This document shows positions 6,543 to 63,385 of a stretch of 64,000 nucleotides of DNA, in pieces. The notes below the pieces were generated by a model. The model saw only the letters and a program-made list of their open reading frames with translations, ran no database searches and was not told where the DNA came from. This DNA is from Isoetes taiwanensis (Eukaryota > Streptophyta > Lycopodiopsida > Isoetales > Isoetaceae), in assembly GCA_021234155.1 (NCBI GenBank), contig JAJEKV010000016.1, forward strand, positions 21,269,863-21,333,862. The letters are read 5' to 3'. Every line of letters begins with the position of its first letter. Position 1 is the first letter of the stretch. The translations under genes and the position numbers were made by a program.

Positions 6543-7705
6543 ATGGATCCGGTCATTCTTGGTATGATTGCCATGCTTTTTTCGTGCTTTGACACTTTCG
6601 GATTTGCATTCTGAGATAATCTTGTTTGCAGCTATTGGAACTCAATGAGCTCGAAGATCCAATGACCCTCGTTTCGGACGATGATGTCTTAGAAGACAAC
6701 AATGGTATGTTCTTTTATGATCTCTGCGTTAATGGTTATGGGTTCCAGCAGGTTAGAAGACCACCAAGAAGATTTTGGATTGCTCCAAGGCAGAGAACAC
6801 AATGGGATAATATCGATAACCACGCATGGAATTGTATAGCTTCCTTTGAAGATGATATGTGGCACCAATTTTACAGGATGAAGAGAGCCACATTTGAGAG
6901 ATTGGTAGGTTTAATTGTGCCCTATCTTGTCAGGCCCGGTATTAAAGTAAGGCCCCCTGTTGATCCCAGGAAAGCAGTTGCTATGGTTCTGTATTTTCTT
7001 GCACACGGGGATATGCCCTTACATGTCGGTCAGAGATTTTATGTAGGGAAAGCAACAGTACAGAAATATACCAAGAAAATCACGCTTGTATTGGCTTCGA
7101 AGACAATGCTGTACAAACGTTTTGTTGCAATGCCTACAGGTGCAAGATTAATTCAGTGCATTAAGGAATTCCATGATGCAACAGGGTTGCCCAATATATA
7201 TGGAGCAGTTGACGGATCCCATATTTTTTTATGGAGGAAACCCAAAAAGAAGGACAATGGGGAAGACTATTACAGCAGACATAAGAGGCACTCATGTCTC
7301 ATGCAAGGAATTGTGACACACAGCAGATTGTTTATAAATGTTTGTGTAACTAGAACAGGTTCAGTCCATGATTCCAACCAGTTCAAGAAGAGTTCCATTT
7401 ACAATAAAATTGCCTCAAAACAAATTTTACAGGAACCTGTGGTGACCCTCAGTGGCAGAAAACTGAAGAAAGGGCAGCCTACTGACCAGGAAGTTCAGGT
7501 AAATATTCCACCATTACTATTAGGTGATTCAGCTTATTCCAGCAGACCCTTTCTCCTTAAAGTCTTTCCTCAAAATCAGGGTGCATATGGTAAGTTTAAC
7601 AAAAGGATATGTAGGGGAAGAGTGTGTGTAGAAAATGGTTTTGGCATTGTCAAGGAAAAGTTTAGAATTCTGAAACACTTGCCTGTGCATGTTGGAGAGG
7701 TTGAG
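6543..7705 (+). pseudogene. PIF/Harbinger DDE transposase, copy A (3' truncated, frameshifted at start)
   Basis: DDE_Tnp_4-type transposase for cut-and-paste transposition. The long frame runs from 6626. Numbering from there: a helix-turn-helix-like region at about 110-150, then the catalytic triad D196 (AVDGSHI), D301 (LLGDSAYSSRPFL) and E336 (RVCVENGFGIVKEKF), all present. The ancestral start is probably the ATG at 6543 (MDPVILGMIAML), because copy B preserves the same sequence at its own start; in copy A that start is out of frame with 6626. After HVG (about 7700) the sequence passes directly into the reversed C-terminal part of the partner Myb-like gene, so the transposase C-terminus was lost in an internal deletion. 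The catalytic core could fold, but the protein is incomplete. Confidence 0.85.
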
Positions 7706-8094
7706 GGTGCCTCCGGTTACCAATTTCATCTCGTTCAGGAGATTGAGGAATGTGGAGACACCGTGATCTGTCCATTGCACAGGGGACTTCCTATTCTTTG
7801 TGTCTATCACTTTTGAATTTTCCTTCTCATGCACAACAATAGCCAAAGCAGAATCGGTTTCTAAAGATTCACTCACAATATTGGAGGATGCCTGAATTTC
7901 GCTGAATACACGCTTGGATCTCTTTTCTTTTGACTGTCTTGAAGAGGGAATTGGCTCAGAATTAGTCTCCAATTGCACATCCATGGAGATCTGGCTTTGT
8001 CATTTTCGGGTCCTTCTTGGTGCCATTTTTCAACCCGAGGAGGCACGAAAGGCTTGCCGGGTTTCGGCAAAAGCGATCGAGAGGCCTTAGACAT
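7690..8094 (-). pseudogene. PIF/Harbinger Myb-like accessory protein, copy A (truncated)
   Basis: Second gene of the Harbinger element, convergent with the transposase. Plant PIF elements use this Myb/SANT-like protein to bind subterminal DNA and help the transposase. The start at 8094 (MSKASRSLLPKPGKPFVPPR) matches the start of copy B at 30425 (MTKATRSSMPTAKKPFIPPR). A frameshift near 7950 moves the reading to another frame, which continues with QWTDHGVSTFLNLLNEMK, the first tryptophan helix of the SANT-like domain, until the deletion junction near 7700. The rest of the domain and the C-terminal half are missing. Confidence 0.75.
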
Positions 8095-30130: not shown

Positions 30131-30424
30131 TAAAAAGGGAGGCTAGGAGCCTGTTATGGCATTGGGCCCAACGCCCCGAAAAATTTATGGGGATCGTTTT
30201 TGGAGGCCGGAAATTTCGACCTTAATTCCGGCCTCTGTTCTAGGTGGGCGGGCTCCAAGAATCAGATCCCAATTCCTTCCCTCCTAGCGGAGCATTAAGC
30301 GCCAATTCTCAATCCGGTAAGCATTTCGAGAATTACTTTACTTCAATTCGTTCATTGCTTTGGTGATAGGCATTTTTTTAGCATCTAATAGATTGAAATA
30401 GCAGACACAAATTTTCTAAAGAAC

Positions 30425-31618
30425 ATGACAAAGGCTACTAGATCCTCCATGCCGACTGCTAAGAAGCCTTTCATTCCACCGAGGAGCGAGAAATTGGTTC
30501 CTAGAAGAACTAAAAGGATGACTGGATCAGTTTCCCAATCTGTGGCCATTGAGATAAATTCTGAACCTTCACGGGCTTCCAATGGCATTGCACGGGAAAG
30601 AAGAGGGATCAGCAGAAAATGGCTGCGTGAGGTTCAATCTGAACCCCTCCCCAATGAATTAGCCTTAGTTGTGCACGATAGCAATTACATTTGCTATGAA
30701 CCCGCCAAGAAAAGGAAAACTCAGGTTGATTGGTCCGACAATGCAATCTCCACCATGCTTGCTTTGATGAAGGAGTACAAGGTTCACAATAATGGTAGTA
30801 TTAATCTTTCTGCAGGGCAATGGAGAGAGATTATGTTGAACTTACAACCCACGGTTCATGGGCTTGAAGATTTGAGACAGTTAAGGAACAAGTGGGATAA
30901 ATTGCGAGATCAAATTCAGGGGATGAAAAAGAGGCATCCGAGAGAACTGGATCAGAACCATCTACGGCCTTGGTTTGAAGCTATGGAAGATCCGAAACAT
31001 GGAGTTACTAATGAGAGAGACATTCAGTGCGAGGGGGATGATGGGGAATTTGGGGCCGAGGCATTCCAGGATGCTGATATGTTTCCAAATACCTACATGT
31101 CTGATGCATTCTATGAGACAATTGGAACAAATGCTTCATTTGTGGAAGAAGAATTTGTAAACGTTCGGATGATAACCCCAGATCCCCCATTTGCAAATGA
31201 AGCAAATGGTAGCAAAGACAATTCAAGTGCACAAGAAAAAAATTCTGGCAAAGAAACTCCAAGTGCTTTCAATCCTTCTGGACACAAGTCCCCTGGCCTG
31301 CACGCATGTAATCAGCCAGGGGTTAGTGGTAAGCCAACAAGTAAAAAGAGATCTCGGGTTCATATTGATGAAGAAATTGCAGCAGGGATATCAAACATGG
31401 CTACCAGCTTTGGTGAAAATGAAAAAAGGAAACTAGATTTCATGAAGGAGGAATCTGTTAAGAAACATGAACTGATTAGGGAATTGGAGTCCATGAGGTC
31501 TGCCAATACTTTAAAAATTGCCCAATCAATGGCTACAATGACAGAAAGCATTTGCCAAATGACCAAAGACACTCTTCTGGAAATTGCTAAGTTGGCTGCA
31601 TCGAAACAGACAAATTAG
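30425..31618 (+). CDS. PIF/Harbinger Myb/SANT-like accessory protein
   Basis: 397-residue uninterrupted ORF, the DNA-binding partner of Harbinger transposase; in related elements it brings the transposase into the nucleus and onto subterminal sites. The N-terminus is basic (MTKATRSSMPTAKKPFIPPR). The SANT/trihelix-like domain lies at about residues 98-180, with regularly spaced tryptophans: VDWSDNAISTMLALMKEYK, then AGQWREIM, then LRNKWDKLRDQ and RPWFEAM. The middle is acidic and Ser/Asn-rich. The C-terminus is a predicted helix (about 310-395) rich in Glu, Lys and Met. The start is supported by alignment with copy A at 8094. The only clearly intact transposon gene in the window. Confidence 0.85.
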   Translation: MTKATRSSMPTAKKPFIPPRSEKLVPRRTKRMTGSVSQSVAIEINSEPSRASNGIARERRGISRKWLREVQSEPLPNELALVVHDSNYICYEPAKKRKTQVDWSDNAISTMLALMKEYKVHNNGSINLSAGQWREIMLNLQPTVHGLEDLRQLRNKWDKLRDQIQGMKKRHPRELDQNHLRPWFEAMEDPKHGVTNERDIQCEGDDGEFGAEAFQDADMFPNTYMSDAFYETIGTNASFVEEEFVNVRMITPDPPFANEANGSKDNSSAQEKNSGKETPSAFNPSGHKSPGLHACNQPGVSGKPTSKKRSRVHIDEEIAAGISNMATSFGENEKRKLDFMKEESVKKHELIRELESMRSANTLKIAQSMATMTESICQMTKDTLLEIAKLAASKQTN

Positions 31619-33112: not shown

Positions 33113-34460
33113 CTAGTTTCTACCTTCTCTATTCTGAAAAATTACATGTCTTATCAAATCCCCTTCCTTCTTCAATTTCTTATTCATGTCCTCTGTCTCA
33201 TAGTAGGCAACATCTGGCAATTCTGGTTCTAAGGGCAGCATTTCCATATCCAGGTCTTCCATTATGCAGAAATTCCACAAGACACAGGCAGCATGAATAA
33301 TCTTGGCTGCCCTACCAACGTGAATAGGCAGAGCTTTCAAAATTCTGAATTTTTCTTTCACTATACCAAAACCATTCTCAACACAAACCCTGCCCTTGCA
33401 AATCCTCTTATTGAACTTGCCAGAAGCACCCGTGCCATCTGGAAAAACCTTAATCAAAAACCTTCTGCTTGGATAAGCCGAATCCCCCAAAAGCATTGGA
33501 GGTATACTAACTGTTACATCTGCATCCAGTAATTCACCTCTTCTGTTAATCTTTTTTTCTGTCATTTGAACAATAGGTTCCTGCAAAATCTGCTTTGATG
33601 CTAGCCTCTTGTACAATAGGCTCTTCTTAAACTGATTGGAATCATGCACAGAACCTGTTCTACTAACGCATACATTGACAAATATTCGAGAGTGTGTTAC
33701 TACACCTTGCATGAGGCAGGAATGTCTTTTGTGTCTGCTGTAATAATCATCCCCTTTGTCTTTTCTCCATGGCTTTACATGCGTAAATATGTGAGAACCA
33801 TCAACAGCACTCAAAAAAATATTAGGCGGCACTGTGGCATCTTCAAATTCCTTAATGATATCAAGTAGTCTTTGACCGAGGGTAAGGCAACAAACCTTTT
33901 GTAAAGCATAGTCTTGGATGCTAAAACTAAAGTCACTTTCTTGGTGTATTTACGATGTGGCCTTTCCAACATAAAATCTTTTGGCCGACATGCAATGGCA
34001 TCTCTCCATGAGCAAGAAAGTAAAGTACCATGGCTCTTGCTCACGGGATCTGAGGGAGCCTAACTTTTCGACCCGGCCTGATCGGGGTATGGCACAATGG
34101 GTCCAACCAATTTTTCAAATGACCTTCTCTTCATTCTATAGGCCGATGCCACATATCATCTTCAAATGAGGGAAGGCAATTCCAAGCATGATTGTCAATG
34201 TTATCCCATTGTGTGGTGCCTTCGGACAAACCCAAAATCTTTCCGGTGGTCTTCTTAGTCGAGAGGTTGCAGCCAAGAGCAATATTGAACATACACATTG
34301 AAGACTAGTGTTGTCTTCTTGAACTCTTCTTCCTCGACTATTGCCATAGGATCTTCCAGTTCGTTCTCTTGAATGAGATCCAAGCAAAACTTCGCAATGC
34401 TAAACCTAGCAAAATAGCCCTAAGAAGCATTGCAATCATACCTAAAATTACCGGATCCAT
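33113..34460 (-). pseudogene. PIF/Harbinger DDE transposase, copy B (frameshifted N-terminal half)
   Basis: Counterpart of the 6.5-7.7 kb transposase, with an intact C-terminus. The start is ATG at 34460 (MDPVILGMIAML). The first half is split by frameshifts among frames at 34387-34136 and 34044-33811; the latter contains YTKKVTLVLASKTMLYKRFV. From 33832 a single frame carries all three catalytic residues (SAVDGSHIF, LLGDSAYPSRRFL, RVCVENGFG) and continues through GRAAKIIHAACVLWNFCIM to a stop at 33113. Copy A lacks that final portion. Non-functional as a single protein. Confidence 0.85.
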
Positions 34461-36330: not shown

Positions 36331-37924
36331 TGTGACATTCCTCAAAAATATACGCCATAAATACGTATATTTTTGGGCCACGTCACCGTACGAAAAGGGA
36401 GCATAGCTAAGTTATTTACACCATAATAGGTGGAAAAGGGAGCATGGCTAAGTTATTTACATAACTTAGCCAACCTTAGGCTTAAGGCCATTTCCACATG
36501 GCCTCACCCTATGGGGCACCCACCACATGGAAGCACCCAATTAGAGCCATGTGCAGTGACATGGAACCCTAACCTATAAGTACCCTAATCCTAACCCTAG
36601 GCCACTTTTCGGCTCCACTTACTTTGAGATCTGTTCTTCGCTCAAAACTCCGTTTCGAACACCGTTCATTGTGGCGCAGCTCAGATCGACAACCCCATGG
36701 TAGTGTGCTCATGAGAAGGAGGAGGAACTACCAGACTCATCAACAAGTCATGGAGACCCCCTTGGAGGAAGTCATCTAGAGCAGATATTCAAAGTAGCCT
36801 CATAGGTAGATCATCTGGAACCTAGGATTCCAGATGAGCTAGTATCTTATTTTGCTAGTAGAGCCTTCCTAGAACCTTCAGTCTAGGTTTCGAAACATAA
36901 GAAAGAAACCCTAACAAGTAGGTAGATTCATGTGTGTAAATTAGATGTTATCTTCTTTATTCATTATGATTATGCTGATGTACGATGTTGGTTGATCTTA
37001 CGTTTGCACCTTTTGTATATTGGGAACGGGGGTAGAGACCTAGTAACCATTATCTAGATGACGCTTTTAGTCTAAACCCCTTAGTTCCTACTATTATGCA
37101 GCCTGTGCATAGGAACCCACCTGGCTACGGGGCCTATGAAGTGACTTAGCACCATATAATGGGGCTTGTGGCTAAGTGGAGGGAGGCCCCTGCTGAGCGC
37201 GGCTACTGGGGACCCATAGCGGGCTAGGCCTATAGTAAGTCACTTCGTATGGGTCGGGCATGTGTCCAACACTTTCTGGGTCAATGGTATCGCCCTGGCT
37301 CTCAAGAGTTGTAGGTGTTGGCCTGGCTCTTGTTTTGGGAAGTTCAGTCGGGTACGAATTGTGTGTCGCCACAATTCTCTAGCCGCCCATAAAGCCACTA
37401 GACCTCGGGAACGGGAGATACAACCCGAAGTAGTCTCGATGGGTGATACTATGAGACTACATATCCGGCAGGTTATAGTCATGCCAGAGCCTGATTTAGC
37501 CCATCTGCAAAGTATGCACAGGAGGGGCGGATGGAGTGGTCAACCCTAGGCATTGTCTATGGCCAGCCCTACCATTGACATATTTCGGTCTGCTCTATCT
37601 TGAGGCCCAGCTGTCAATCTACTTACCTTACGAGTCTGAGCCTGGGTAGGAGCTCATATGCTTTACGGCATGCTGATATCTTTGATGTATCTATGGTTGT
37701 AGGGATGTGCTGCCCTTTGAGGTAGTTGGATGTACTGTTATTGCTAGTGCTGACGTTATGTTATGTTTTTGCTGTTATAGGAGCCCATAGAGGAAGGGTG
37801 CGCAAGACACCTTCGTGTCCCCTTCGCGCACTAGAGATGTCTCAGGTGCAGGATAGACGGAGGGCATGCTGCCGGAGGGCTGGATGGGGGATTTTCCACG
37901 AGATGTACGATGGGGCGCGTCACA
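36331..37924 (+). mobile_element. 5' LTR of the histone-bearing retroelement
   Basis: 1594-base LTR. It starts TGTGACATTCCTC and ends GCGTCACA; the 6-base ends TGTGAC/GTCACA are perfect inverted repeats with the usual TG...CA. A TATA-like CTATAAGT lies at 36574-36581. The border is supported independently by the primer binding site two bases downstream and by a second, partial copy (3' LTR) at 45434-45991, which matches about 36453-37012 at roughly 85-90% by eye. Confidence 0.85.
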
Positions 37925-37925
37925 A

Positions 37926-37937
37926 TGGTACCAGAGC
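37926..37937 (+). promoter_or_regulatory. Primer binding site, tRNA-iMet-like
   Basis: TGGTACCAGAGC starts one base after the LTR. The initiator-methionine tRNA primer site used by many plant retroelements is TGGTATCAGAGC, so there is one mismatch. It fixes the plus-strand orientation of the element. Confidence 0.8.
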
Positions 37938-38326
37938 AATATTCTTGGTTGACCAAGAGCAAGCACTGACCATATCCCTAAAGTAGAGTAACTGGCAGAG
38001 TAGAGCATGCAATGGAAAATTCCAGCATTGAACCTCGAATTGGGGGGGAAAATTTTTTCAAGTAGTAGGATCATAGAGCTAGGCTAAAATTAGGGATTCA
38101 GAAAAAAGAATGAGTGAAACGAACTTCGTAGTAAAACTGGAGTGGAAATTATCCATAAGCATCAATTTTCATCCAAAATGGGTCGAAGAATCATCCCAAT
38201 TCGAGATCCGGGTGAAACATGGCACGAATTAATACACACCAAACTATTAGAAAGAAATTCAAAATTTAAAAATTATATAATAATAAAAAGGACTAACCAT
38301 TAATAAGGGTAGTTGATTAATAGGTG

Positions 38327-38470: not shown

Positions 38471-39567
38471 ATGGCTCGCACCAAATGCACTGCTAGGAAC
38501 ATTAGTAGCCCTAAACGGAGACCCAGCATGGCAAAAATAGTGGCGGGCGGTGGTAAGAATATCCCGGAGCACTTAAGGCCAAGGAGGAGGAGGAGCACAA
38601 TATATCGACCTACCACACCTCTGAGGAGCAGGCTCCAAGTAGCTCGGCCGAGTGCACTCAGCAGACCGGCAAGTCGGTCGACCACAGCACGCTTTCGGGG
38701 AGCCAAGGGAGACCCCAGCAGTAGGAGCAGCAGCAGGAAGAGGAGCATCCGCAAGAATAGATGGGCTCCAGTAAGAAGAAGAGGAAGGGGAAGATGAAAG
38801 AGTGGCCAGAAGAGAGAGCGGCCAGCAAGAGTAAGGAGAGAGAACATGAGGTGAGGCAGCACGAGAAAAGATCCAAGAGGGATCAGGACCGGCCGAGGGG
38901 AATGGTTACAATCGAAGAACCTCGTCGAGAAGCAACGGACGAGCAGCAAGAAGATGAAAAGGAGGTCTAAGATGAAGAGGAGGAGCTCGAAGGGGAAGTC
39001 GGGAAAACCTCAAACCCCGACGTCAGACCGCCTTATCCAAAATGGCCCAAGCCACCGAAGAAGCAGAAGGTGGGGGAATGGGAGTTCAAGCTCAAGTAGG
39101 ACCAAGAGTTTGAAAGGAAGAAGGTGGCATATCAAGAGTACTTCCAGAGGTGGACATGCTACAATAACTGGTATTGTAAGCAAAACGTCCAGAGCTACGT
39201 GAAGGGTGGCAGACCCAAGAACCAGCTGGAGCCCCTTCCATCTCGGCCAGTAGCTCCCAGGAGGGTCTATCATGGGCCCAACTCCAGGCATGCGCGGGTG
39301 TTTCGAGAGATTAGGCACTTTCAGCAGTGCACTAATCTCCTGATCTGGAAGGTGTCGTTCGAACGGTTACTCTGGGAGACAATGCAGGAGTTCAAGATTG
39401 ACTATTGGGTCACATCCCTGACAGTTCGATCCCTCCAGGAGGCAGCAGAGGACGAGCTCATCCAACTATTTGAGGAGGGCAACCTATGCGCCATATATGC
39501 CAAAAGTGTCACGGTGATGCCCAAGGATCTTCACTTGGCCCGAAGAATTAGGAAAGACAAGCTCTAA
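38471..39567 (+). pseudogene. Retroelement-borne histone H3-like protein (H3 tail start, charged insert, H3 fold)
   Basis: Starts MARTKCTARN, closely like the histone H3 tail opening (MARTKQTARK), with K4 present and K9 replaced by Asn. About 35 codons on, a one-base shift leads into a second frame that runs to the end: a 230-residue, highly charged Lys/Glu/Ser segment with four in-frame stops (near 38722, 38758, 38968 and 39100), then from about 39256 an H3 fold ending at 39567. Landmarks are REIRHFQQCTNLLIWK (alpha-N), SFERLLWETMQEFKID (alpha-1), SLQEAAEDELIQLFEEGNLC (alpha-2) and VTVMPKDLHLARRIR (alpha-3). I count about 49 identities in 87 positions to plant H3 as I remember it, with no gap in loop 1, unlike CENH3. 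Full length would be about 365 residues against 136 for H3. Location: between the LTR/primer site and gag. A nucleosomal or chromatin-targeting role is inference. Confidence 0.85.
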
Positions 39568-39655: not shown

Positions 39656-40085
39656 AGCACTCCGTGCCAAACGCCCCTGCGTCAAGAATGCAGAGCCCTT
39701 CTGCGCGAAGTAACTAGAGTCGGCTTAGTTGTACTTGAAAATTGATAGATTATCATGAGAAAAGTTGCTAGATTGTTTAGAATTGTCTCAATCTTGCATC
39801 TTAGAATTGTCTCACTCTGCACCAAACGTCCTTGTGTCGAGAACGCAGAGCCCTTCCACGCAGAGTAACTCGTGTCGACCATTTTTGCACTTGTACTTGG
39901 CCGATTGACATGAGATAAGTTGGTAGATAGTCTAGAATAGAGAAACCTTGCATTCTAGTATTTTACATTCCCAAAAAGGTTCCAGATTAGTCAAATTTGA
40001 CCCACTCGAGTCACTCCGCTCCAGACGCCCATGTGGCGAGAACACAGAGCCCTTCCATGCAGAGTAACCCGAGTCGCTTTTGTTT
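39656..40085 (+). repeat. Three direct repeats of about 70 bp between ORF1 and ORF2
   Basis: Units begin near 39656, 39808 and 40010 and share the pattern cactc-g--ccaaacgcc, gagaacgcagagcccttcca, cgcagagtaac-cgagtcg. They lie in the non-coding gap between the H3-like ORF and the second ORF, and end about 165 bases upstream of a TATA box. Could be an enhancer-like or terminator-like block; function unknown. Confidence 0.75.
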
Positions 40086-40370: not shown

Positions 40371-41260
40371 AATGCCCACAAACTTCATTGAATGGTACAA
40401 CAGCGTCAATCACATAAGTGAGATCCTAGTTGAGGAGGCTTTTCAAGTCTTTGATCATCTCTTCGATCTCCATGCAACATTGACCCGGATGCCTTACTAC
40501 ACCAACATCATTTGCCAAAGCAAATCTTGCCCTGGGAAGTCAGCCTTCTTCCAAGGGGAGAAATGGGTCTCCCTAGAGTCACTAAGTCAAGTCTTAGGTG
40601 GGGGTTCCAGAGTCAAGACCCAGATGTGGGACAAGACGAAGAACATGCCAGATTACATGAGCTACAAGGTCCATAGACACAGATATGTCTCAAGCACACG
40701 CAGCTATGTCCATGTTCATGCACTTCAAGGCCATCAACAAGGTGGGGGAGCCTTCCATACAGCCTTTGGACCTCGCACCTTTGAATACAAGGGTGGACCA
40801 GGGCCTCATCCATGAGCTCGATGCCACAGAATACATCTACCACGGCACATCTTCGAGAGCGCCTCAGATTGAAGAGGACTATGAAAAAGAGTGGGATGAC
40901 AATCAGGAAGAGGAGAGCAGGCTAGCACCAAGGATGGAAAGGCGGATCGTGAGGCATGACCAGGATATCAGAAAGAGCCAACGAACCATCCATAGGCATC
41001 ACTACCTTGTCCCCGGTGGTTATCGAATGGGAGGAATACCTCTTCGCCAATGACATCCTCCACCTACCATACTGTTTAGAAGAAGGGCTCAGGATCGATG
41101 AGCTCATGGGTTGATTGTAGAAGGGCAGCAGAAAGACCTCATCGATTACACCTACCAGGAAGTCCCAAAAGAGGTAGCCGAGCATCATTCTTATGCCAGG
41201 GAGATAATGTCAGATGTGGTGGCATACGAATATATAAGGCAGGTGTTGTAGAAATTGTTC
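40371..41260 (+). pseudogene. Second unrecognised ORF of the histone-bearing retroelement
   Basis: Starts MPTNFIEWYNSVNHISEILV and stays open for about 100 codons. It then shifts frame near 40680 and continues as MSQAHAAMSMFMHFKAINKV and DQGLIHELDATEYIYHG, with an acidic Glu/Asp-rich middle. Another shift near 41020 gives VVIEWEEYLFANDILHLPYC, and the last part reads QQKDLIDYTYQEVPKEVAEH. Codon-like composition across the shifts argues that this was one protein of about 290 residues. I do not recognise a family. The position before gag recalls the extra ORF1 of Tat/Ogre-type gypsy elements, but no specific match can be claimed. Confidence 0.5.
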
Positions 41261-41580
41261 CAGAAATAGTCAGTATAACAATAGCTTTATTCACCAAATT
41301 TGCTAGACAACTTTATAAACAAGGCTTATAAAAGCTTAGATTCATGGAGCCAAAATATGGTCACTCATCCATAAACCTTTTACAAAAAACTACAACTCCT
41401 GCGCTCAGCTCTCGATCTGTAAGCCCCCCTGTCTATCCATTCCTCCAGTATTTATCTCCATATTTACCTTCCAATTCGGGTGCATCCACTTGTCAAATTG
41501 TGCATCCCCTTCATATAGAAAGTTCTCCAACTTGCCTAAAAATCAGGAGTAGATAGACTTGCCTTCCTTAAAATTCGGCC

Positions 41581-41735
41581 CTAGTTGACTTTGACTTTGA
41601 CTGGTCAACACAAACCCTAAGTGGCGGGCAGGGGGTGTCTGTGTGTTTCTAGCGAGCCCAGCAACACCCGGGTAGGGGGTGCCCGCCACTTTGACTTTGA
41701 CCCGCCACCTTTGACTTTGACTTTGACCTACTGCC
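41581..41735 (+). promoter_or_regulatory. TTTGAC/W-box array around an inverted repeat
   Basis: At least seven TTTGAC units, several forming the plant WRKY-binding W-box TTGAC(C/T), sit at 41586-41608 and 41688-41730. Between them gtggcgggcagggggtg and gggtgcccgccac form an inverted repeat. The next 100 bases repeat ctactgccactgcttctcat twice. Located in the retroelement between ORF2 and gag. Confidence 0.5.
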
Positions 41736-41869
41736 ACTGCTTCTCATAGGTCTTTCCAAAGCTTTGTATAACATGACACCATTTAACATGCCACTGCTCT
41801 AATCTACTGCCACTGCTTCTCATAGATTAGAATAGAATATCACTCACAATTATTACATGACAACTACAA

Positions 41870-42515
41870 CAGGTGTACCATCATCAACCGCCAGTCATCC
41901 AGGAAGAAGAGTTCCAGGCAATACAAAGCACATTATACAAGCCAGGGAGAGGCCCAAGCTCTAGTCCTCCGTCCGAGCAAGAAGCATGCTGGAAGGGTCC
42001 AGCAACATCAACCTGGATAATGCAGCCACCATATGGAGAGATCACGAAGACCTCCTGACAGTGGATGTCTATGGCAATGTGGCAGGGAGGAAGGGCACAG
42101 GAACACAGCTAGCAAGACCTCAGAGGGGGAAGGCCCTTCGGTACTACCTTCTGGTCCTAAGCCAGGGCCAGATGATAGTATTTCACAAAGACTTCAGCCC
42201 AAGTGGAGAGGAGGATCACTCCTGATCTCACTTACAGGGTTCGGGCAGCACGCTAAGATAAGGGAGAACACGGATCACGTCATCCTTTTCAAAAAATCCG
42301 CGGTGTTCTACAGCCTCGACTTCGTATGAGGTCATCTAAGAGACGCGCCCTTGACACTAGTGGTGGCTATGGCACCTGCGCTCCCACCTGCACAAATGAC
42401 TCGGGCACTACAAGGGGGATCATCACGAAACATACTATGCAACGTCGGCAAGGGTCTTCGACTCAAGGACGTGAAGAATTTCTTCAAGTCCATGAAGGCC
42501 TCCCGGCACTGAACA
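41870..42515 (+). pseudogene. Coding-like relic between ORF2 and gag
   Basis: Pro/Ser/Gly-rich frames 41873-42058, 42033-42329 and on to about 42510. Readable pieces are DHEDLLTVDVYGNVAGRK, AKIRENTDHVILFKKSAVFY and LRLKDVKNFFKSMKASRH. Composition is coding-like, but there are multiple stops and no family match. Probably the end of the pre-gag ORF region of the same element. Confidence 0.35.
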
Positions 42516-42749
42516 CTTTTCTTCCTTTCCTATATATTAACATGTATCAGTATGTTCTAAATTCTAATATACTAAGTATTTCTATAATAATTCAAGCTTC
42601 CAATTGAATGATCATGCCATGATTTAAAATGATTCATTGTTAACTTATAACTTGAGTTTCAATTTAATTTCTTTTATGGATAACAAGAATTAACATATAA
42701 ATGCCATCATAACGTATAACTTTGAATAACAAACATGGTGACTAATATT

Positions 42750-43975
42750 TGCAGCCAGAAACACTGGCTCAGACTCAAAAGGTCAGGGCAGGCAGCATCA
42801 CTGGCAACCTAGAAACCTTTTCGGCCAAGAATATGAAGAGGAGGAGGACATGTCGGTTGAAGCCATCAATCGGAGGCTTGTACAGATGCGCAATCGAATG
42901 GAACAACTAGTGCAATGGGCAACGCTACTAATGCATGCACAAGAATGTGGACTAATGATGCCTCCGCCCCCTCGGGAACTAGACCAAGCAGCTCAACCAG
43001 AACAGGAGGAAGTCCATGTGCCTGAGAAGAACAAAAAGAGGAAAAGAAGAAGCCGGAGAAGCCCAACTCCTTCTAGCTCCAGCCAAACGGTCAGTACAAC
43101 CAGTGTAATCTCAGAGCAGCTCTGAAAGTGAGACAGACACCTCATAGGGCAGGGACAAGAACCATAGGGCAGGAGACTACCAGAAAAAGGTGGATAGTAC
43201 CATGAGCAACATGTGGAAGACCCGGAAATTGGGGCAGTTCTCCGGGAAGGACAGGTCAGAAATAAAAGCTGAAGTTTGGTTGGATGAAATGGAAGAATTT
43301 GGAAACTCGTACGGAATGCAAGACAAAGACATAGGAAAAGTGGCAACAGCAAATCTGATTGGCCCAGTACGTAATTGGTGGAAAGAATATGCTAAGTCAA
43401 ACAAGCTAAAAAAAAACAATAGCAGATTCAAAACCTTCAGTAAGGCTTTCCGCAAGCATTATGTCCCAAGGCCGCACACAAGCAGGTAGATTCAACAGTT
43501 CTATAGGCTGGACCAAGGGACCTTATCAGTGGCCAAATATACGGAGGAATTTATGAGGCTACGGCTAAATGTTCCAAAGATCACAGAGAGACAGGTTGTG
43601 GATAGTTATATTGAGGGATTGAACAGCAACATTAAGAGATTGGTCCGGGCCATCAACCCGAAAACAGTTGGGAGGCCAAAGACAAAGCACTAAGCTTGGA
43701 GGAAGCACCGCCGACCCTGGGCTGAAACAATCATTCTACAAGGGGAAAGCAACAGGCTCTTATCCACCAAAGCAGGCATCCACCACACCAACATGGCAGC
43801 AGTCTCAGGGGAGGATGGATAGGAAAGGCTCATATGGGGATCAGAAGCATCAGGGAGGCCCAGCAGGGAAGTCAGTGAAATATTTTCTGGATAGTATTCC
43901 CAAGAAAAAGAGGGAAGAGTGCATCAAGAAGAGACTACGTCTTCTAGCTGGGACATCGTACGCATGATTGCCCTT
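42750..43975 (+). pseudogene. Ty3/gypsy gag (capsid), histone-bearing element
   Basis: Reading begins right after a splice-acceptor-like 'aatatttgcag' (42754) with GSDSKGQGRQHHWQPRNLFG and an acidic stretch. It continues through MSVEAINRRLVQMRNRMEQL and a basic KKRKRRSRRSPTPSSSS segment into the capsid core (Retrotrans_gag): LGQFSGKDRSEIKAEVWLDE, then LIGPVRNWWKEYAKSNK and FSKAFRKHYVPR. A TAG at 43488 interrupts the core where the 56-kb copy has CAG (HTSRQIQQFYRLDQ). The nucleocapsid zinc-knuckle region near 43915-43965 has lost its later cysteines. A structural protein of the virus-like particle, now broken. Confidence 0.85.
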
Positions 43976-44009: not shown

Positions 44010-44300
44010 TGAAAGGTGCCAACAGAACTAGACAACGACGACGATGATGACCAACAAGAACCACAAGACTATATAGAAGGTGAGTGTAGAATTTGTGCAA
44101 TCATTGAGTTAGGTGATGTCAAAAGTCAGTTCACGATTATTTCAGCAGAGGGCATCATAGACGATAAACCCTATGTAGTTCTTATAGACACAGGTAGCTC
44201 CCACAACTTTGTTTTGCTCAGATTAGCCGCTTTATTGAAATTCAATACCCTCAAATCAAAGCCAAAGTCAGAAGGAGAAGATATTTTTGCCCCATAGCCA
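44010..44300 (+). pseudogene. Ty3/gypsy aspartic protease
   Basis: Retropepsin of the same element. An acidic linker (DNDDDDDQQEPQDYIEG) is followed by the catalytic motif VVLIDTGSSHNFVLLRLAAL (D of DTGS at about 44190). The frame stops at 44295; the next frame continues with GKYDLIIGMDFWKPAKAMID, the ILGMDWL-like flap and second half of the protease domain (44312-44570). Confidence 0.85.
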
Positions 44301-44570
44301 AAGGGTGGACTATGGGGGCAGAGGTCATGGATATTGGTAAGTATGACCTTATAATCGGCATGGATTTTTGGAAGCCAGCTAAAGCAATGATCGACTGCGA
44401 CAGGCATGAGATCTCGATCACGGCACTCGACGGCAACCATTTTGTGGTCAAAGGTAAGGAAGTCCCTTCTATAATACAGTGTATGTCCTTGAAGCAGTTG
44501 CACAAATCCATAATGAAGGATAAAATTGAGTACATCCTTAGGCTAGAAACCATTGAGCCTGATCCGGGGT

Positions 44571-45425
44571 AGCAAGGTGAGTCAAGCTTGAAACAGTTGC
44601 CCAGGCCAGTTGCGAGGCTAGTCAAAGAGTCCCACGGTGTTTTTCTGGATGAAATCCGTGATTTACCGCCCTATAGAGGCGTGGAATGTGAGATTACTCT
44701 AGCATCAGGTGCTAAGCCTACCAGTAAGGCTCCTTATAGGATGAGCACTCCAGAGCTAGCTGAGCTCAAGAAGCAATTGCAAGAGTTGCTAGAGCTCGGA
44801 TTCATTAGGGCAGGCGTATGATACTTCGGGGCACTCATTCTCTTTATAAAGAAGAAGGACGGAAGTTTAAGAATGTATATTGACTACCCTCAATTGAACA
44901 AGCAGATGGTAAAGAACAAATATGCTTTGCTTAGGGCAGATGACTTGATGGATCAACTCCAAGGAGCGAAAGTCTTTTCCAAGCTAGGCTTCAGATCGGG
45001 GTGCCATCAGATAAGAAATCGAGGAAGAAGACATCCATAAGACCATCTTTAGAACGTAGTATGGGCATTATGAATTTGAGTCGTGCCTTTTGCCTATCAA
45101 ATGCCCCAGCAACGTTTATGAGGCCAATAAACAATCTTCATGGAGTTCTTGGATGAGTTTGTCATCATTTTCTTCGATGACATCCTGATCTATAGCAAGT
45201 CAATGGATGAACATGTAGCATATTTAAGAAAAGTCTTGAAGAAGCTAAGACGGCACTGTTTGTTGGCAAACTTTCTATGTGCCATTTTGCTACAACAAAA
45301 GTTGAATACCTAGGTCATGTTGTATCTGCCGAAGGTATAGGGTGGATCCATCGAAGATAAAAGCCATAGTAGATTGGCCAGTACCAAAGAACGTCTTTGA
45401 AGTGAGAAGCTTTCTTGGCTTAGCG
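44571..45425 (+). pseudogene. Ty3/gypsy reverse transcriptase, truncated
   Basis: From 44588: LVKESHGVFLDEIRDLPPYR, then ASGAKPTSKAPYRMSTPELA and LQELLELGFIRAGV, typical of plant chromoviruses, with a stop at 44819 and continuation in the same frame ([20 protein letters not shown]). Later pieces include [20 protein letters not shown] and the active site read as IIFFDDILIYSKSMDEH (FFDD in place of YLDD). Frames then shift and [14 protein letters not shown] is still readable. The domain ends abruptly at about 45420 against a partial LTR, so RNase H and integrase, including any chromodomain, are missing. Confidence 0.85.
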
Positions 45426-45433
45426 GCTACTAC

Positions 45434-45991
45434 ATAACTTAGTAAACCTTCGGCTTAAGGCCATTTCCACATGGCCTTACACTATGGGGCGCCCGCTACA
45501 TGGAAGCGCTCAATTGGAGCCACGTGGCAGTGACATGGAACCCTAATCTATAAGTACCCTAACCCTAACCCTAGGCCATTTTTCGGCTCCACCTGCCTTG
45601 AGACCTGTTCTTCGCTCGGAACTCCGTTTCGAACACCATTCATTGCAGGCAACTCTGATCTACAGTCCCAAGGTAATGCGCTCATCAAAAGGAGGAGGAA
45701 CTACCCGACTCATCAACAAGTCATGGAGACCCTAGAAGTTGGAGAAAGTTCGTCCGAAGCAGGTATTCAAAGTAGCCCCATAGATAGATCATCTGGAACC
45801 TAGGATTCAAGATGAGCTAGTATCTTACTTTGCTAGTAGAGCCTTCCTAGAACCCCCAGTCTAAGTTTCGAACGCTAAGAAAAGAACATTAACAAGTAGA
45901 TAGATTCATGTGTGTAGATTAGATGTTATCTTCTTTATTCATTATGATTATGCCGATGTACGATGTTGGTTGATCTTATGTTTGCACCTTA
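45434..45991 (+). mobile_element. Partial 3' LTR
   Basis: Aligns with 36453-37012 of the 5' LTR from acataacttag to gttggttgatctta-gtttgcacctt, including the ctataagtaccctaa TATA region. The first 120 bases and the last 900 or so of the LTR are absent. The left junction joins reverse transcriptase directly to LTR interior, so one deletion removed RNase H, integrase and the LTR start; a second break removed the LTR end. Confidence 0.8.
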
Positions 45992-47982
45992 TGAAACAAA
46001 ATATAGTCAACTTTTTTTCCCAACAAAACAATATAGCCTGAAGGCGGCTATGGCCCTCACGCTAATATCCAACACTAGATAAAAAGGAGGGAGCTTCTGA
46101 AATAAGCTATAGATGCTTAATCTGAAGGGGGCATCATTGCTTGCTTGCTGCAGTTTGCTAGCCCTTTTTTCCATTCTAATTTGATGTCTAGTCATAAACA
46201 ATTCACGGGCAAATAAGTTATCAACAATAACAATCAATGTAGCTTTCACCCAAAACTAGTAACTAGCAATATAGAATGGGCACAACCACTATTTTTAAAT
46301 TTGTTTTCTTATATATAGGGGATAAGAACATAGTAGCCATATCCTTTATTTGTAGGCAAAACTGTTTCTTAGTAGAATATTCTCAACTTTCACACAAAGA
46401 TATTCGTGGATGCCATTGCTCGGAATCTTTCTCATAAATAGAGTAAGCTTTAATCTACGGAAAGCTATCTATTGTCCTTGAACTCGCAGACAGATTTTAA
46501 GGACCATTCTTGCATAACTAAATTACACACAGTGAGCACTATAAATTATCTGGTTTAGAGCATTCACCTCTCAGGATAATGATCAAAGTTGCTTCACACT
46601 ATGATAAGATGCAAAAATAGTTTAAGGCCATGTACTCCACATCCGTTTAAGGCCATGTCTCCCAGTATTCATTCTCAACCAGTTTAACAAATAAAAGCCC
46701 TGTTTTTGGCCATGGCATAGAACATCACAAATTTTTCTGATCATTGTACTATTGTACTGCCCATTTCGGCCTCTAAGATACAATCCTACAGTAAAATAGA
46801 CTGCTTCACTCCGGTTGGCCTTCATTTTGGCAACAAGCACTAGCCGAAATCTCCAAATCTAGATTCTATAGCCATTAACATAACAAATGACGTATCAAAA
46901 ACTTGATTTTTAGTTGGAAACACCAGATTCGACAGCTTCAAATTGTGATTGTGGCCTCAAATCATGTTGTGACCATTATGGCCGCATCGCGCCAAGATAC
47001 TGATCGCCCCGATATTTCTTCAGAAAATAGGGTTTGCAAGCATTGCCACTATAACAGGGTCTTTAACCCTAAATTGACGGATTTTGCATCCCGTTAACCA
47101 CAAACAAAGGATGCTCCACAAGATCTGCAATTTCTAGTTCCAAAAAACCCTAGGAAGCAAAAGCAGTGGTTATGGCACCGGAAGTTCTCCCTTGTTGCCC
47201 CAACACGATTCTGCTTAGAAAAGGCTGCAGCCTTTTCGTAATCAGAATTACATTGTTTATACAATGGTTTGGAAAAAAGAAAAAAAAAACCAAATCTATT
47301 TTTGATTAAATCTTTTTCCCTTCAACTAAAATTTTGTAAAAAACATTTGCCAATGTAATAACTTGGTCTCCCCCCTCCTTCTCCTTTTTTCTTCTTAACC
47401 ATAGCTAACGTTGCTTTGGGGACGACTATGACGAGCCTCTTAGAAGTTCACATCGGCTGTCTGTTTGTATAGTGCGTGCCCACTTGATATAGATCATAGA
47501 TTTTGAAATTTCAGGTTCTATTTCAAGATTATGTTTGCAAATGCTTTTTACAAATTTTTGATTGGAAAAGAAAAAAGGTTTAATCAAAAATAAGATTTTT
47601 ATAAGAGGTTCTTTTTTAGCAACCATTGTGTTAATATCTAAGTTGCTAAAAATAGATAAAGACGAGAAGCACTAGAAAGAGAATGGCAATTGTTTCTATG
47701 CTCATAACTTGAGCTATAAAGGTCAGATGCAAATGATCTTGAGCTCATTGGAAAGCTTATGTAGAGAGCTTTCTATTGGCATATGGTTTGATCCAAATAT
47801 ATGAATATAGGTACCTGCTTTTTGTACTTTTCAATCCGGATACTTTTTTGCAAATCGCATGCCATGCAGATTTGATTGTAATATGGTTCTTCTCAAAACT
47901 TTTGAATACGGGCTTTGTTTTGAGTCTTTTTTATTGCGTTGGAAAGCATTTTTGCTGGGTTTCTTTTTTCTTTTTTTTTTTG
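45992..47982. other. No supportable gene
   Basis: AT-rich. The plus-strand frame at 46903-47097 has a possible Cys-x2-Cys (VCKHC) after MAASRQDTDRPDISSEN, reminiscent of a BED-type start, but is too short to call. 47270-47640 is A/T-rich. No other signal. Confidence 0.4.
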
Positions 47983-54460: not shown

Positions 54461-55944
54461 TAAACCAGAGGATTCGGCAGCGGATTTGGTCCAGAATATG
54501 GGGTCTTTGCTGGAGCATCGACCTGCAGAGAATGTGGAAGTCTAGCAGAGAAGGCTTGGGTGCCATGTCCAAAGTAGTTGGGTTCTGACAGCCAAATAAA
54601 GAGAGCACCCATTTGCTGAAGCTGTTGGCATAACCCAGCCCCAAACCACACAACCAATTTTTATATTCGTCATTTTGCAATTTGGGCTCTTCACCTTTTG
54701 CAGCAGCTAAGCCATTTCCTTTCCCAATTTTTACATTACTGATCTTCTCTTACTGCCCATTACTTTGGGTTCCCTAAAACTGGCGGCGAGTCCTGCAAAC
54801 AAAAAAGCTTCAAAAATGGGTCGAGTTCATGTGTTTTGGCCCCCAGAATCTAAAAAGTGATGCATCAAATCCATGCAAATCCATGCACTACAATGACATG
54901 TTTTTTGTTTCACAGGTTGCAAACTCTCAATTGGCAAAAGAGTTAACCATGTTCGGCGACATCGACACTGCATCCAAGACGCTACATGTCAGAATGGTAG
55001 GAGCATTGCTTGACAAATTTCTCGATTACCCATCAGGAGGCGCAGTAGCTACAATAAAGACAGATCCTCGATCATTGTGCTAAAGCGTACTAAAGAGTTC
55101 GAGATCAGCCATGGACTCCAAATCATTGCCTTCGACAGGGCCTAGGCTCAGAACACGACCCATAACTATTGAGCAACAAAAGACATGCCTTCGCATTTCT
55201 AAGCATTGCAACTTCCATGTATTTCATGCTATTAAATTCTAGGCAACCTTCTTCAATTTAAAATATGGAGTTCTTCCTTCATACCCTGAACAAAATTGAC
55301 ATGCAAAACAATTCACAATTCCTAAGTTCTTTTGGATTGTTCATATATTGTTTCGCATATTATCAAGTATTCTATTGTCTTGATGTAGCAATTTGAATTG
55401 ATTGTCAAAACATGACTTTGAACTATGATTTAAGCCACTTCACCCCTCGGCCATGGAGGCCAACCCTCCGTGCGCAGCACCTTGTTATTTCTTTTTTGTT
55501 TTCTAGATTCTAATAGTCACTTTTGGATCAGGGTTTGCTATCGTGGCCATTGGGTTATGGAAGTTCAAATCTCTTCTTTTAAGTAATCATAGAGAGTGAA
55601 TCTTTGTAATCCAGGGAGGGCATTGATCAAAAATTTCAATAAGCATCAAGCTGGACTTTGTAGAAATTAACACTTTAATAAATTCCCTTCTGTAATTGAG
55701 TACGTGAAGAGAAACGTTCGCAACGCCACGAGAAATTTCTTGTATTCTCTAAGTGCATTTACATTTCACAAAGATACTAGACAAGGGTGAGTGTTTGATG
55801 GTTACTTTGCGTTACAACATAAAAATTTCCCTATGTGATTGACTTTCTTACACACAAGGAGTCAGGAAACAATGCCGTCGCAATAAATTTTTTGTATAAA
55901 TAATTCACCTTGTTAATTATTTCACATAGAATTTGGTCAATACT
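54461..55944. other. Unassigned region upstream of the second gag
   Basis: 54829-55083 (+) has an open frame with SQLAKELTMFGDIDTASKTL and HVRMVGALLDKFLDYPSGGA after a 'gtttcacag' acceptor-like site. It is coding-like but not recognised. The region lies where the pre-gag ORFs of the histone-bearing element would be, but I see no H3 fold here. Confidence 0.3.
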
Positions 55945-56715
55945 TGCAGCTAGGAACCGGTTCAGGGTCTCAAGGCCAAGGCCGGCAGCACCAGTGGCAA
56001 CCTAGGAACTTGTTCGGCCGGGTACACGACGACGAACAAGACATGACAGTTGAAACAGTGAATGCAAGGTTGGCTCAGATGAGGAATCAGATGCAGCAGT
56101 TACTACAGTAGGCAACACCACTAATGCATGCCCAAGAGTATGGACCTCCACCACCACCTCCACCACCTGTGGGAGGTATTGACGAAGCTCCTCATCCGGA
56201 AAGGGAGGAAAATCAGGCTGCAGAGAAGGATAGAAAGAGGAAAAGAAGAGGCAGGAGGAGTCCATCCCCTTCCAGCTCTAGCAAATCAGAGACCTCAGAC
56301 AGTGAATCCGGCAGTAGCCCCGACAGTGAATCAGACACATCACAGGGCAGAAACAAGAACAGAAAGATAGATGACTACCAAAAGAAGGTAGACAGTGCAA
56401 TGAGCAATGTCTGGAAGACAAGAAAGCTGGGATAGTTCTCAGGTAAGGACAGGTCAGGTATGGAGGCCGAAGCATGGCTGGATGAGATGGAAGAATTCGG
56501 AAACTCTTATGGGATGAAGGATAAGGACGTAGGTAAAGTGGCAACGGCAAACTTGATAGGGCCAGCCAGAATATGGTGGAAAGGATACGCAAAGTCCAAC
56601 AAGCTAAGAAGAAACAATTGCAAGTTCAAGACTTTCAGCAAGGCATTCCGCAAGCACTACGTGCCGAGATCCCACACGAGTAGGCAGATACAGCAGTTTT
56701 ACAGGCTGGATCAGG
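55945..56715 (+). pseudogene. Second gag copy of the histone-bearing retroelement family
   Basis: Starts after 'caatacttgcag' with GSGSQGQGRQHQWQPRNLFG, parallel to the 42.75-kb gag. It has a stop at 56109 (TAG where the other copy has TGG, Q-W-AT) and another at 56431 (TAG where the other has CAG, KLGQFSG). The capsid core reads EAWLDEMEEFGNSYGMKDKD, LIGPARIWWKGYAKSNK and SKAFRKHYVPRSHTSR, and ends abruptly after YRLDQ at about 56715. No protease or reverse transcriptase follows. Confidence 0.85.
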
Positions 56716-61905: not shown

Positions 61906-62097
61906 AGCTCTTTCATTGCAATCATACCAAATTGAGAGGGGAGAGATTTGGCAGCGGTGATGTTGAAACTAGAAGGTGCGGAAGTGGAGTTAGTGTTGAG
62001 CAAACACTGGCAGAATCGTTGAAAAATTTTTAAAAATTAGGGCCAGCGTGTTGTCCAGTTCTTGGGTCAATATGGTAAAACAAGGTGCGTTGCAGCT

Positions 62098-63385
62098 ATG
62101 TCGGGGACGTGCTAGAACAAGCTAGATTAGCACACGAAGAAATCGAACGCTTGGAAAGACTGGTTGTAAATAAGCTTCAGAAGGAGGTGAAACACAAAGA
62201 AACTCTGCAACAAAATCATAGGGTTAAGCACATGATCGATTCAATTCTTGCTATTGAGGCTAGGCTTGTGGAAATCTATGAAGACAAGGATAGTGCTATA
62301 AAGGAAGAAATTGATGCTCTTGCAGGTGAACGCGCTGATTCAGGTACAAATAATGTCTTTGGCAGCTTCTATGACAGGCTGAAGGAAATTAAGGACTATC
62401 ATAGGTGGCACCAACATTCTCAAGTTTTAGACCCAGATTTTGTTTTAGAGGAGATGCTTAAAGAAGAGCCTGTCATTGAGTCTAGTGGAGAAGAAGGATA
62501 CGACAGGTATCTTGATATGCACGAGTTGTTTCATCATTTCCTCAATGCCAAGTTCGGCACAGAAGCATTCCAATCAATACCAAGAATATATGGAAGTCTT
62601 CTTGCATTATCTCGTATCATTTTTTGAGAGAACACAGCCTCTAAAGGACGTGGGAAAGATTTTTTTTTTAAGTTGAATCAGAGTTTGAAGAGCAATGGGC
62701 GGCTGGAAAAGTGAAAGGTAAAAAGATGGATCAATAGAAGATGATTATGATTCTGCTGAACAGCGGGCTGAACTCGGTGAGGATAAACTGAAATGCGCTC
62801 TGACTGCTATTGGCTTGAAGAGTGGTGGCACAGCGCAATGGCATGCACAAAGATTGTTTTTGACAAAGTTTACTCCATTAAAAAGTTGGATAAGAATCTC
62901 TTTGCAACAGAAAAACCAAAATATTGTCTGAAGGACATTGCATTGCTGGAGACAAGGTCTCGCACTTATATAAGCTTCTCAATGATGTAATTGAGGAAAC
63001 CAAGGCTCATGTTGAGAAAAAACAAGCTTTAAGATATGAAGAAATGGAAGTAGAATGAGAAGAGGAAGACATGCAACCCGAGAGTGAGAGTGATGATGAC
63101 GAGCAACAAGTGTATAATCCATTGAAGCTGCCTGTGGAATGGAATGGAAAGTTTATCCCCTATTGGCTTTACAAGCTTCATGATCTTGGTCAAGAGTTCA
63201 AGTGTGAAATATGTGGAAATTCTAGTTATTGGGGTCGTAGAGCCTTCTAAAGACATTTCAAGGAATTTTAGCACTAGCATGGAATGCGATGCTTGGGGAT
63301 ACACAATACAAAAAAAAAGTCATGAAGTCACCTCTATCATATAGAGACTTGCAATGGCAAGGATTGATCTGATGAAGAAAGGTTA
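62098..63385 (+). pseudogene. SF3A3: SF3A3 (SF3a60) splicing-factor pseudogene
   Basis: Intronless copy of the U2 snRNP SF3a 60-kDa subunit. ATG at 62098 (MSGT) is followed by a one-base shift, then VLEQARLAHEEIERLERLVV and NVFGSFYDRLKEIKDYHRWH, then RYLDMHELFHHFLNAKFG. The frame breaks near 62570 (EVFLHYLVSFFERTQPL continues in another frame). A damaged middle includes the SAP-like stretch. The C-terminal C2H2-type matrin finger region is readable at 63110-63300 ([20 protein letters not shown], then [20 protein letters not shown]). It stops matching at about 63385, just before a GTTAGT. At least four frameshifts or stops. Lack of introns over 1.2 kb suggests a retrocopy, but the sudden end leaves a partial gene duplicate possible. 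Confidence 0.85.

Follow-up and report, generated by a model that had tools for sequence, protein, structure and literature searches.

The closest described systems to the one reported here are fungal DNA transposons that carry histone H3. In Pyrenophora tritici-repentis, 26 almost identical copies of an H3-like gene, H3L, ride on a hAT transposon; they are represented by expressed sequence tags (ESTs), have insertions in the tail and are fully neither H3 nor CenH3 (PMC3538342; here and below, statements on cited papers refer to the portions of them covered). In Pseudocercospora fijiensis and five further genomes, H3 was captured by a hAT transposon (PMC6710886). Viruses offer parallels with other histones: a bracovirus H4 joins host nucleosomes (PMC10208167), and Marseillevirus encodes histone doublets (PMC9145170). 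Among the extra open reading frames (ORFs) of plant long terminal repeat (LTR) elements, genes gained by transduction occur in one or few copies (PMC7264820), 5' sense ORFs are a defined category in a survey of 13,863 elements in which 21.4% of extra-ORF proteins had domain matches (PMC6317226), and orchid Gypsy elements have kept a host-type N6-methyladenosine (m6A) demethylase domain through several replication rounds (PMC9289625). Here we describe an H3-derived gene inside a decayed Ty3/gypsy LTR retroelement in a 64,000-nucleotide stretch of the Isoetes taiwanensis genome (contig JAJEKV010000016.1), the whole of which we call the window and whose first letter is position 1.

A preliminary description of this DNA knew of no plant retroelement with a core histone. 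In the titles, abstracts and passages covered of the open-licence literature of PubMed Central (PMC), outside the domain table of PMC6317226, we found no report of a histone encoded by an LTR retroelement, and the word 'histone' is absent from the covered portion of a review of extra ORFs (PMC7264820). For mobile DNA in general, a core histone as cargo does have precedents, in the H3 carried by fungal hAT transposons (PMC3538342, PMC6710886).

An H3-derived gene with the two ends of H3

The locus is a decayed H3-derived gene within the 5' internal region of a Ty3/gypsy copy that is itself decayed and deleted. Positions 39256–39567 of the forward strand encode an H3 histone fold, including the stop codon (Pfam Histone, E 8.1e-21 for the 147-residue frame at 39124–39564), and the same segment is matched by H3 chains in the PDB (best E 4.8e-26). 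From 39100 on, this frame has no stop until the one ending at 39567. At E 8e-21, we regard the fold as beyond chance. Compared with Arabidopsis H3.1, 49 of 88 aligned columns are identical; the RPG columns, part of RPGTVAL before helix alpha-N in H3, are unmatched. A structure model of the fold (mean predicted local distance difference test score (pLDDT) 61, predicted template modelling score (pTM) 0.44) has its helices ordered as in H3. Among the 50 Foldseek matches listed for this model, all titles but one (UAF complex) refer to nucleosomes, hexasomes or histones, with template modelling scores (TM-scores) of about 0.4 and root-mean-square deviations of 9–15, so that the comparison adds little.

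The beginning of the gene also reads as H3. An ATG at 38471 opens MARTKCTARN, which shares eight of ten residues with the H3 start MARTKQTARK. This is the best start among 2,879 ATGs on both strands (runner-up 5/10), and the best match in 200 one-strand mononucleotide shuffles was 6/10, against 8/10 at 38471. We take this H3-like start, too, to be beyond chance, and both ends of the gene are the ends of H3. Residue 9 of the tail is Asn rather than Lys, and the likeness to H3 stops after about residue 9. A second H3-like start at 38219, sharing a 15-nt repeat with 38464, ranked 9th of 2,025 ATG reads by gapped score and was dismissed as chance.

Between its ends the gene departs from the typical H3 layout, in which about 136 residues join the tail straight to the fold. 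Some 224 codons (38584–39255), mostly charged linker, intervene and replace the remainder of the H3 tail. The preliminary description had read 38471–39567 as a single ORF with an H3-tail start and an H3 fold at its end. The match of the start and those of the fold to Pfam and PDB bear out both ends, but the single frame could not be upheld: the start lies in frame 2 and the fold in frame 1, with four frame 1 stops before the fold (38722, 38758, 38968 and 39097). Because their guanine–cytosine (GC) contents at the three codon positions are alike (.57/.38/.67 for the linker,.53/.36/.66 for the fold; gag,.60/.43/.48), linker and fold are taken to share frame 1. Codon usage favours frame 1 over the other two in segments starting from 38711 to 39071, and does not settle the frame in those starting at 38471 and 38591.

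We weighed whether the cargo derives from centromeric CENH3 and not from H3, in which case it would have guided the element, or DNA of the element, towards centromeres. The motifs RHFQ..TNLLI and LQEAAED resemble plant CENH3, and CENH3s usually have a MARTK start with a long variable tail behind it (for example, P0006). Loop 1, by contrast, is of H3 length, without the CENH3 extension. Eight columns have one residue in all three CENH3s compared and another in H3; among these, the fold follows CENH3 at one, H3 at three and neither at four. A tree grouped the three CENH3s without the window fold (96/95); the fold itself has a long branch (1.27) in this tree, and its placement is unsure. On the length of loop 1 and the diagnostic columns, CENH3 origin was set aside, and we consider it very improbable.

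Constraint on the fold

Identities to H3 are not spread evenly over the fold. The fold is identical to H3 at 32 of the 42 positions kept by Arabidopsis and maize CENH3 and at 17 of the 46 elsewhere (Fisher p 2e-4); a looser rule, requiring three of four divergent relatives, gave 33/47 versus 16/41 (p 0.003). Identities thus concentrate where divergent H3s are conserved, which argues for constraint before decay. Of the 35 core positions, 32 remain hydrophobic in character (23 identical), as do all eight H3–H3' positions, and 12 of 16 positions of the H3–H3' bundle are identical. The pattern points to a fold that evolved under H3-type constraint before the copy decayed, whether in the element or as a host variant. 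The lack of stops in the fold was not used as proof of selection.

The surrounding Ty3/gypsy element

An LTR, a primer site, gag, protease and reverse transcriptase (RT) had been described around the H3 gene, and all were recovered on the same strand (Table 1). By its sequence organization, the element is a decayed, internally deleted Ty3/gypsy copy. It has two LTRs, the second a remnant, and a primer site matching at 14 of 19 bases. The LTR pair (36458–37015 and 45431–45993) differs by a Kimura two-parameter (K2P) distance of 0.136 (557 sites, 52 transitions and 16 transversions). Retrotrans_gag matched 43490–43690 with 28.0 bits (above the cut-off of 24.1) and 43190–43486 with 23.5 bits. Scores for the protease (Asp_protease_2 for 44016–44294, E 0.0011, 20 bits, cut-off 24.3) and for two RT pieces (RVT_1, E 6e-4 and 1.4e-5, 20 and 25.4 bits, cut-off 29.6) fall below the cut-offs, as is usual for broken frames.

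Table 1 The H3-derived gene and the element around it, in order along the window.
Feature	Positions	Strand	Evidence
5' LTR, TGTGAC...GTCACA	36331..37924	+	Ends read from sequence; second copy confirms only 36458-37015
Primer-binding site, initiator-Met type	37926..37944	+	14/19 bases to tRNA-iMet complement
H3-like N-terminal tail MARTKCTARN..., frame 2	38471..38583	+	8/10 to MARTKQTARK
Charged linker, frame 1, four stops	38584..39255	+	Codon-position GC as in same-frame fold; stops
H3 histone fold and stop codon	39256..39567	+	Pfam Histone E 8.1e-21, PDB H3 E 4.8e-26
ORF2, function-unassigned, broken into several frames	40372..41250	+	Reading frames; without Pfam or NCBIfam family
gag (capsid)	42744..43690	+	Retrotrans_gag; second copy at 55939
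Aspartic protease region, two frames	44016..44572	+	Asp_protease_2 below cut-off
Reverse transcriptase, broken, 3' side truncated	44573..45430	+	RVT_1 below cut-off
3' LTR remnant	45431..45993	+	87.8% identical to 36458-37015

The gag, protease and RT pieces follow each other in element order. RT stops near 45430 and runs directly into the 3' LTR remnant. With its 3' part the copy has thus lost RNase H and integrase, and also the outer end of the second LTR, where a target-site duplication would be read. The element may be chromovirus-like; the end of integrase, after which a chromodomain would be expected, is absent from this copy. Such a rearranged 3' side, with RT passing straight into LTR sequence, is what an assembly or recombination chimera of unrelated fragments could leave behind. 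From primer site to RT, the parts nevertheless have the order and strand of one element, and the region contains no gap; we regard a chimera as the most improbable of the explanations considered.

About 4.8 kb separate the primer site from gag. This interval holds the H3 gene, three 66-nt repeats, ORF2, an insert-like stretch and an AT-rich stretch. The repeats (39657–39722, 39812–39877 and 40011–40076) lie at uneven intervals downstream of the H3 gene and before ORF2. The insert-like stretch, 41240–41876, has internal repeats and is bracketed by CAGGTGT (41240–41246 and 41870–41876); it may represent a solo LTR or another small insertion within ORF2. The AT-rich stretch at 42531–42743 is intron-like (GC 0.23) and ends in TTTGCAG. 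For ORF2, a single-sequence structure model reached a pLDDT of 43 and was not used.

The window has just one other gag copy (55939–56713), which belongs to the same lineage (72.6% identity over 778 nt) and has two in-frame stops. It is flanked by splice-like TTGCAG and CAG|GTAGC and its upstream sequence is unrelated to that of the first copy; cut at the 5' border, it is uninformative on H3. Over 94 codons of the capsid part, the two copies differ at 0.077 of replacement sites and 0.85 of silent sites, from which we conclude that the lineage is old and its gag strongly constrained.

Searches for relatives

With the ORF1 protein as query, 1,447 candidates in a protein search yielded six proteins, each covering 23–24% of the query and all with a Pfam histone domain. 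None of the seven candidates for the 147-residue fold query passed, nor did any of the 4,634 candidates for the ORF2 and gag pieces. ORF2 was without a Pfam or NCBIfam family, and neither a protein search nor a scan of viral contigs gave a match for it. Viral contigs held no relative of P0003, the window fold, a gag piece or an ORF2 piece, and prokaryote genomes held no relative; plant repeats are not expected in either. A viral origin was rejected on the absence of relatives of these four queries from the viral contigs.

Three proteins, P0002–P0004 (431–447 residues), have an architecture like that of the window gene, with an H3 start, a long insert and a C-terminal H3 fold. Their inserts are glycine-rich and acidic, and their folds, unlike that of the window, are nearer H3.1 (71/86, 73/88 and 71/88 identical). 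Kinship of their inserts with the window's linker was not detectable: in comparisons of the last 90–100 residues before the fold, the score was matched by 410, 313 and 403 of 500 shuffles.

Origin of the H3 gene

The reading we prefer, quite possible though a little short of probable, is that a Ty3/gypsy element captured H3 as an extra ORF, which was under constraint before decay of the present copy set in. Primer site, H3 gene, gag, protease and RT lie on one strand in element order, with LTR remnants on both sides. The proposal in the preliminary description that the histone belongs to an LTR retroelement thus agrees with the anatomy, and is weakened by the state of the evidence, one decayed and deleted copy.

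Several observations weigh against such a capture or are neutral. Only this single, decayed copy is available, and no relative of ORF1 as a whole, ORF2 or gag was found in the protein, viral-contig and prokaryote searches. Of the 13 DNA-contact positions only 7 are identical, and three arginines have become Trp, all with TGG codons, as is usual in the decay of methylated DNA. The stop-free fold is weak evidence, as 323 of 3000 neutral runs were also without a stop. A perfect 11-nt inverted pair (38161–38171 and 39736–39746) flanks the gene. Its CHG ratio (0.93–0.96) is above that of LTR and RT (0.69) and below that of gag (1.28). Lastly, third-position GC is 0.65 in fold and linker, versus 0.48–0.51 in gag, 0.37 in the protease and 0.48 in RT; ORF2 has 0.59–0.60. 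Given this difference in base composition, the H3 gene may be a later or foreign acquisition relative to gag-pol. For CpG, fold and LTR have the same ratio (0.53), RT stands at 0.55, tail and linker at 0.58, gag at 0.41 and the upstream flank at 0.50; CpG and CHG depletion was dropped as a sign of common age, as it does not discriminate.

The CHG ratio and third-position GC that set the gene apart from LTR and RT would also suit a nested arrival, in which the gene or a pseudogene of a divergent host H3 variant entered the element after the latter's own insertion. The inverted pair around the gene also speaks for this, and the region did take up other DNA, namely the stretch bracketed by CAGGTGT. 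One 11-nt inverted pair is, however, close to the chance number that we estimate for 2.5 kb, and the gene has the same strand as the element. No direct repeats of at least 11 nt straddle the gene, with copies on either side of 38471–39567 (shorter target duplications are possible), and no long A-run follows the stop of the H3 gene. We judge a nested arrival improbable.

A further explanation is passenger transduction, in which an H3-related host transcript was caught by one or a few copies, gave the element no help and decayed. The third-position GC, unlike that of gag-pol, fits a passenger of this kind, as does the lack of a relative in the protein searches. The fold is nonetheless far from H3.1 (49/88) with its core kept, which implies long evolution under constraint somewhere. 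A fresh capture would require an equally divergent host source gene, and none appeared in the protein searches with ORF1 and the 147-residue fold. Transduction of a passenger is unlikely in our estimate, if a serious contender.

A possible role in chromatin

If an H3 gene was captured and maintained, a Ty3/gypsy element would have acquired it as an additional ORF, in sense orientation, upstream of gag and downstream of the primer site. The product would be a long-tailed H3 variant with an ARTK-type start, about 220 inserted, mostly charged residues and a fold with the H3 loop length. Most likely, this variant would pair with host H4 via its retained dimer and tetramer surfaces, and variant nucleosomes would go on element cDNA or newly inserted copies. 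With the surfaces for pairing with H4 and H3 retained, a role in chromatin would be a natural consequence, and we infer that the gene was fixed in the element family and translated, with such a function; packing, targeting and anti-silencing are candidate roles. With Asn at residue 9, the tail would not bear the H3K9 silencing mark in this copy, although the Asn may itself be a product of decay.

In its fullest form, the proposal would be that a plant LTR family encodes a long-tailed H3 whose tail refuses the H3K9 mark and which forms nucleosomes with host H4 on element DNA, such that new copies escape the loop between H3K9 methylation (H3K9me) and CHG methylation or are otherwise chromatin-marked to the element's benefit. 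We hold this to be improbable, if anything slightly more so than a nested arrival. Plants silence retroelements largely via histone H3 marks. If the proposal is true, an element supplying its own H3 would mount a direct attack on H3-based silencing and provide a tool for studying that system. Even as a mere captured gene, the locus would add an LTR retroelement to the fungal DNA transposons as carriers of H3.

Other features of the window

Two related DDE transposase copies (DDE_Tnp_4) lie in opposite orientation at 6620–7813 and 33113–34304, accompanied by a Myb/SANT-like ORF at 30392–31615; we read the three together as PIF/Harbinger. A transposase in the window has a weak Plant_tran match (19.4 bits, cut-off 22). 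At 62079–62624 lies an exon of the splicing factor SF3A3/SF3a60, probably of a host gene, which we take to be plant-like in look.

Comparison with known systems

The nearest counterpart is H3L of the P. tritici-repentis hAT transposon, which resembles the window gene as H3-like mobile cargo with insertions in the N-terminal tail and an adjoining function-unassigned ORF. It differs in being carried by a fungal DNA transposon in many copies with ESTs, whereas here an LTR retroelement carries one decayed copy with a far longer insertion (PMC3538342). In P. fijiensis, too, an H3 coding sequence was carried, multiplied and then inactivated by cytosine-to-thymine decay; in that case the carrier is a DNA transposon, the copies number hundreds and are mostly truncated to 71–100 residues, and the decay is due to repeat-induced point mutation (RIP) (PMC6710886). 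Viral histones share with the proposed H3 cargo the principle of a parasite's own histone working in nucleosomes, but belong to viruses, are other histones or doublets, and are described without mention of a retroelement in the portions covered (PMC10208167, PMC9145170); in a review of viral histones, 'retro' does not occur (PMC9145170). Plant elements with extra ORFs, which lack a histone in the portions of the literature covered, match the element described here in anatomy, with a further sense ORF internal to a Ty3/gypsy element (PMC7264820, PMC6317226, PMC9289625).
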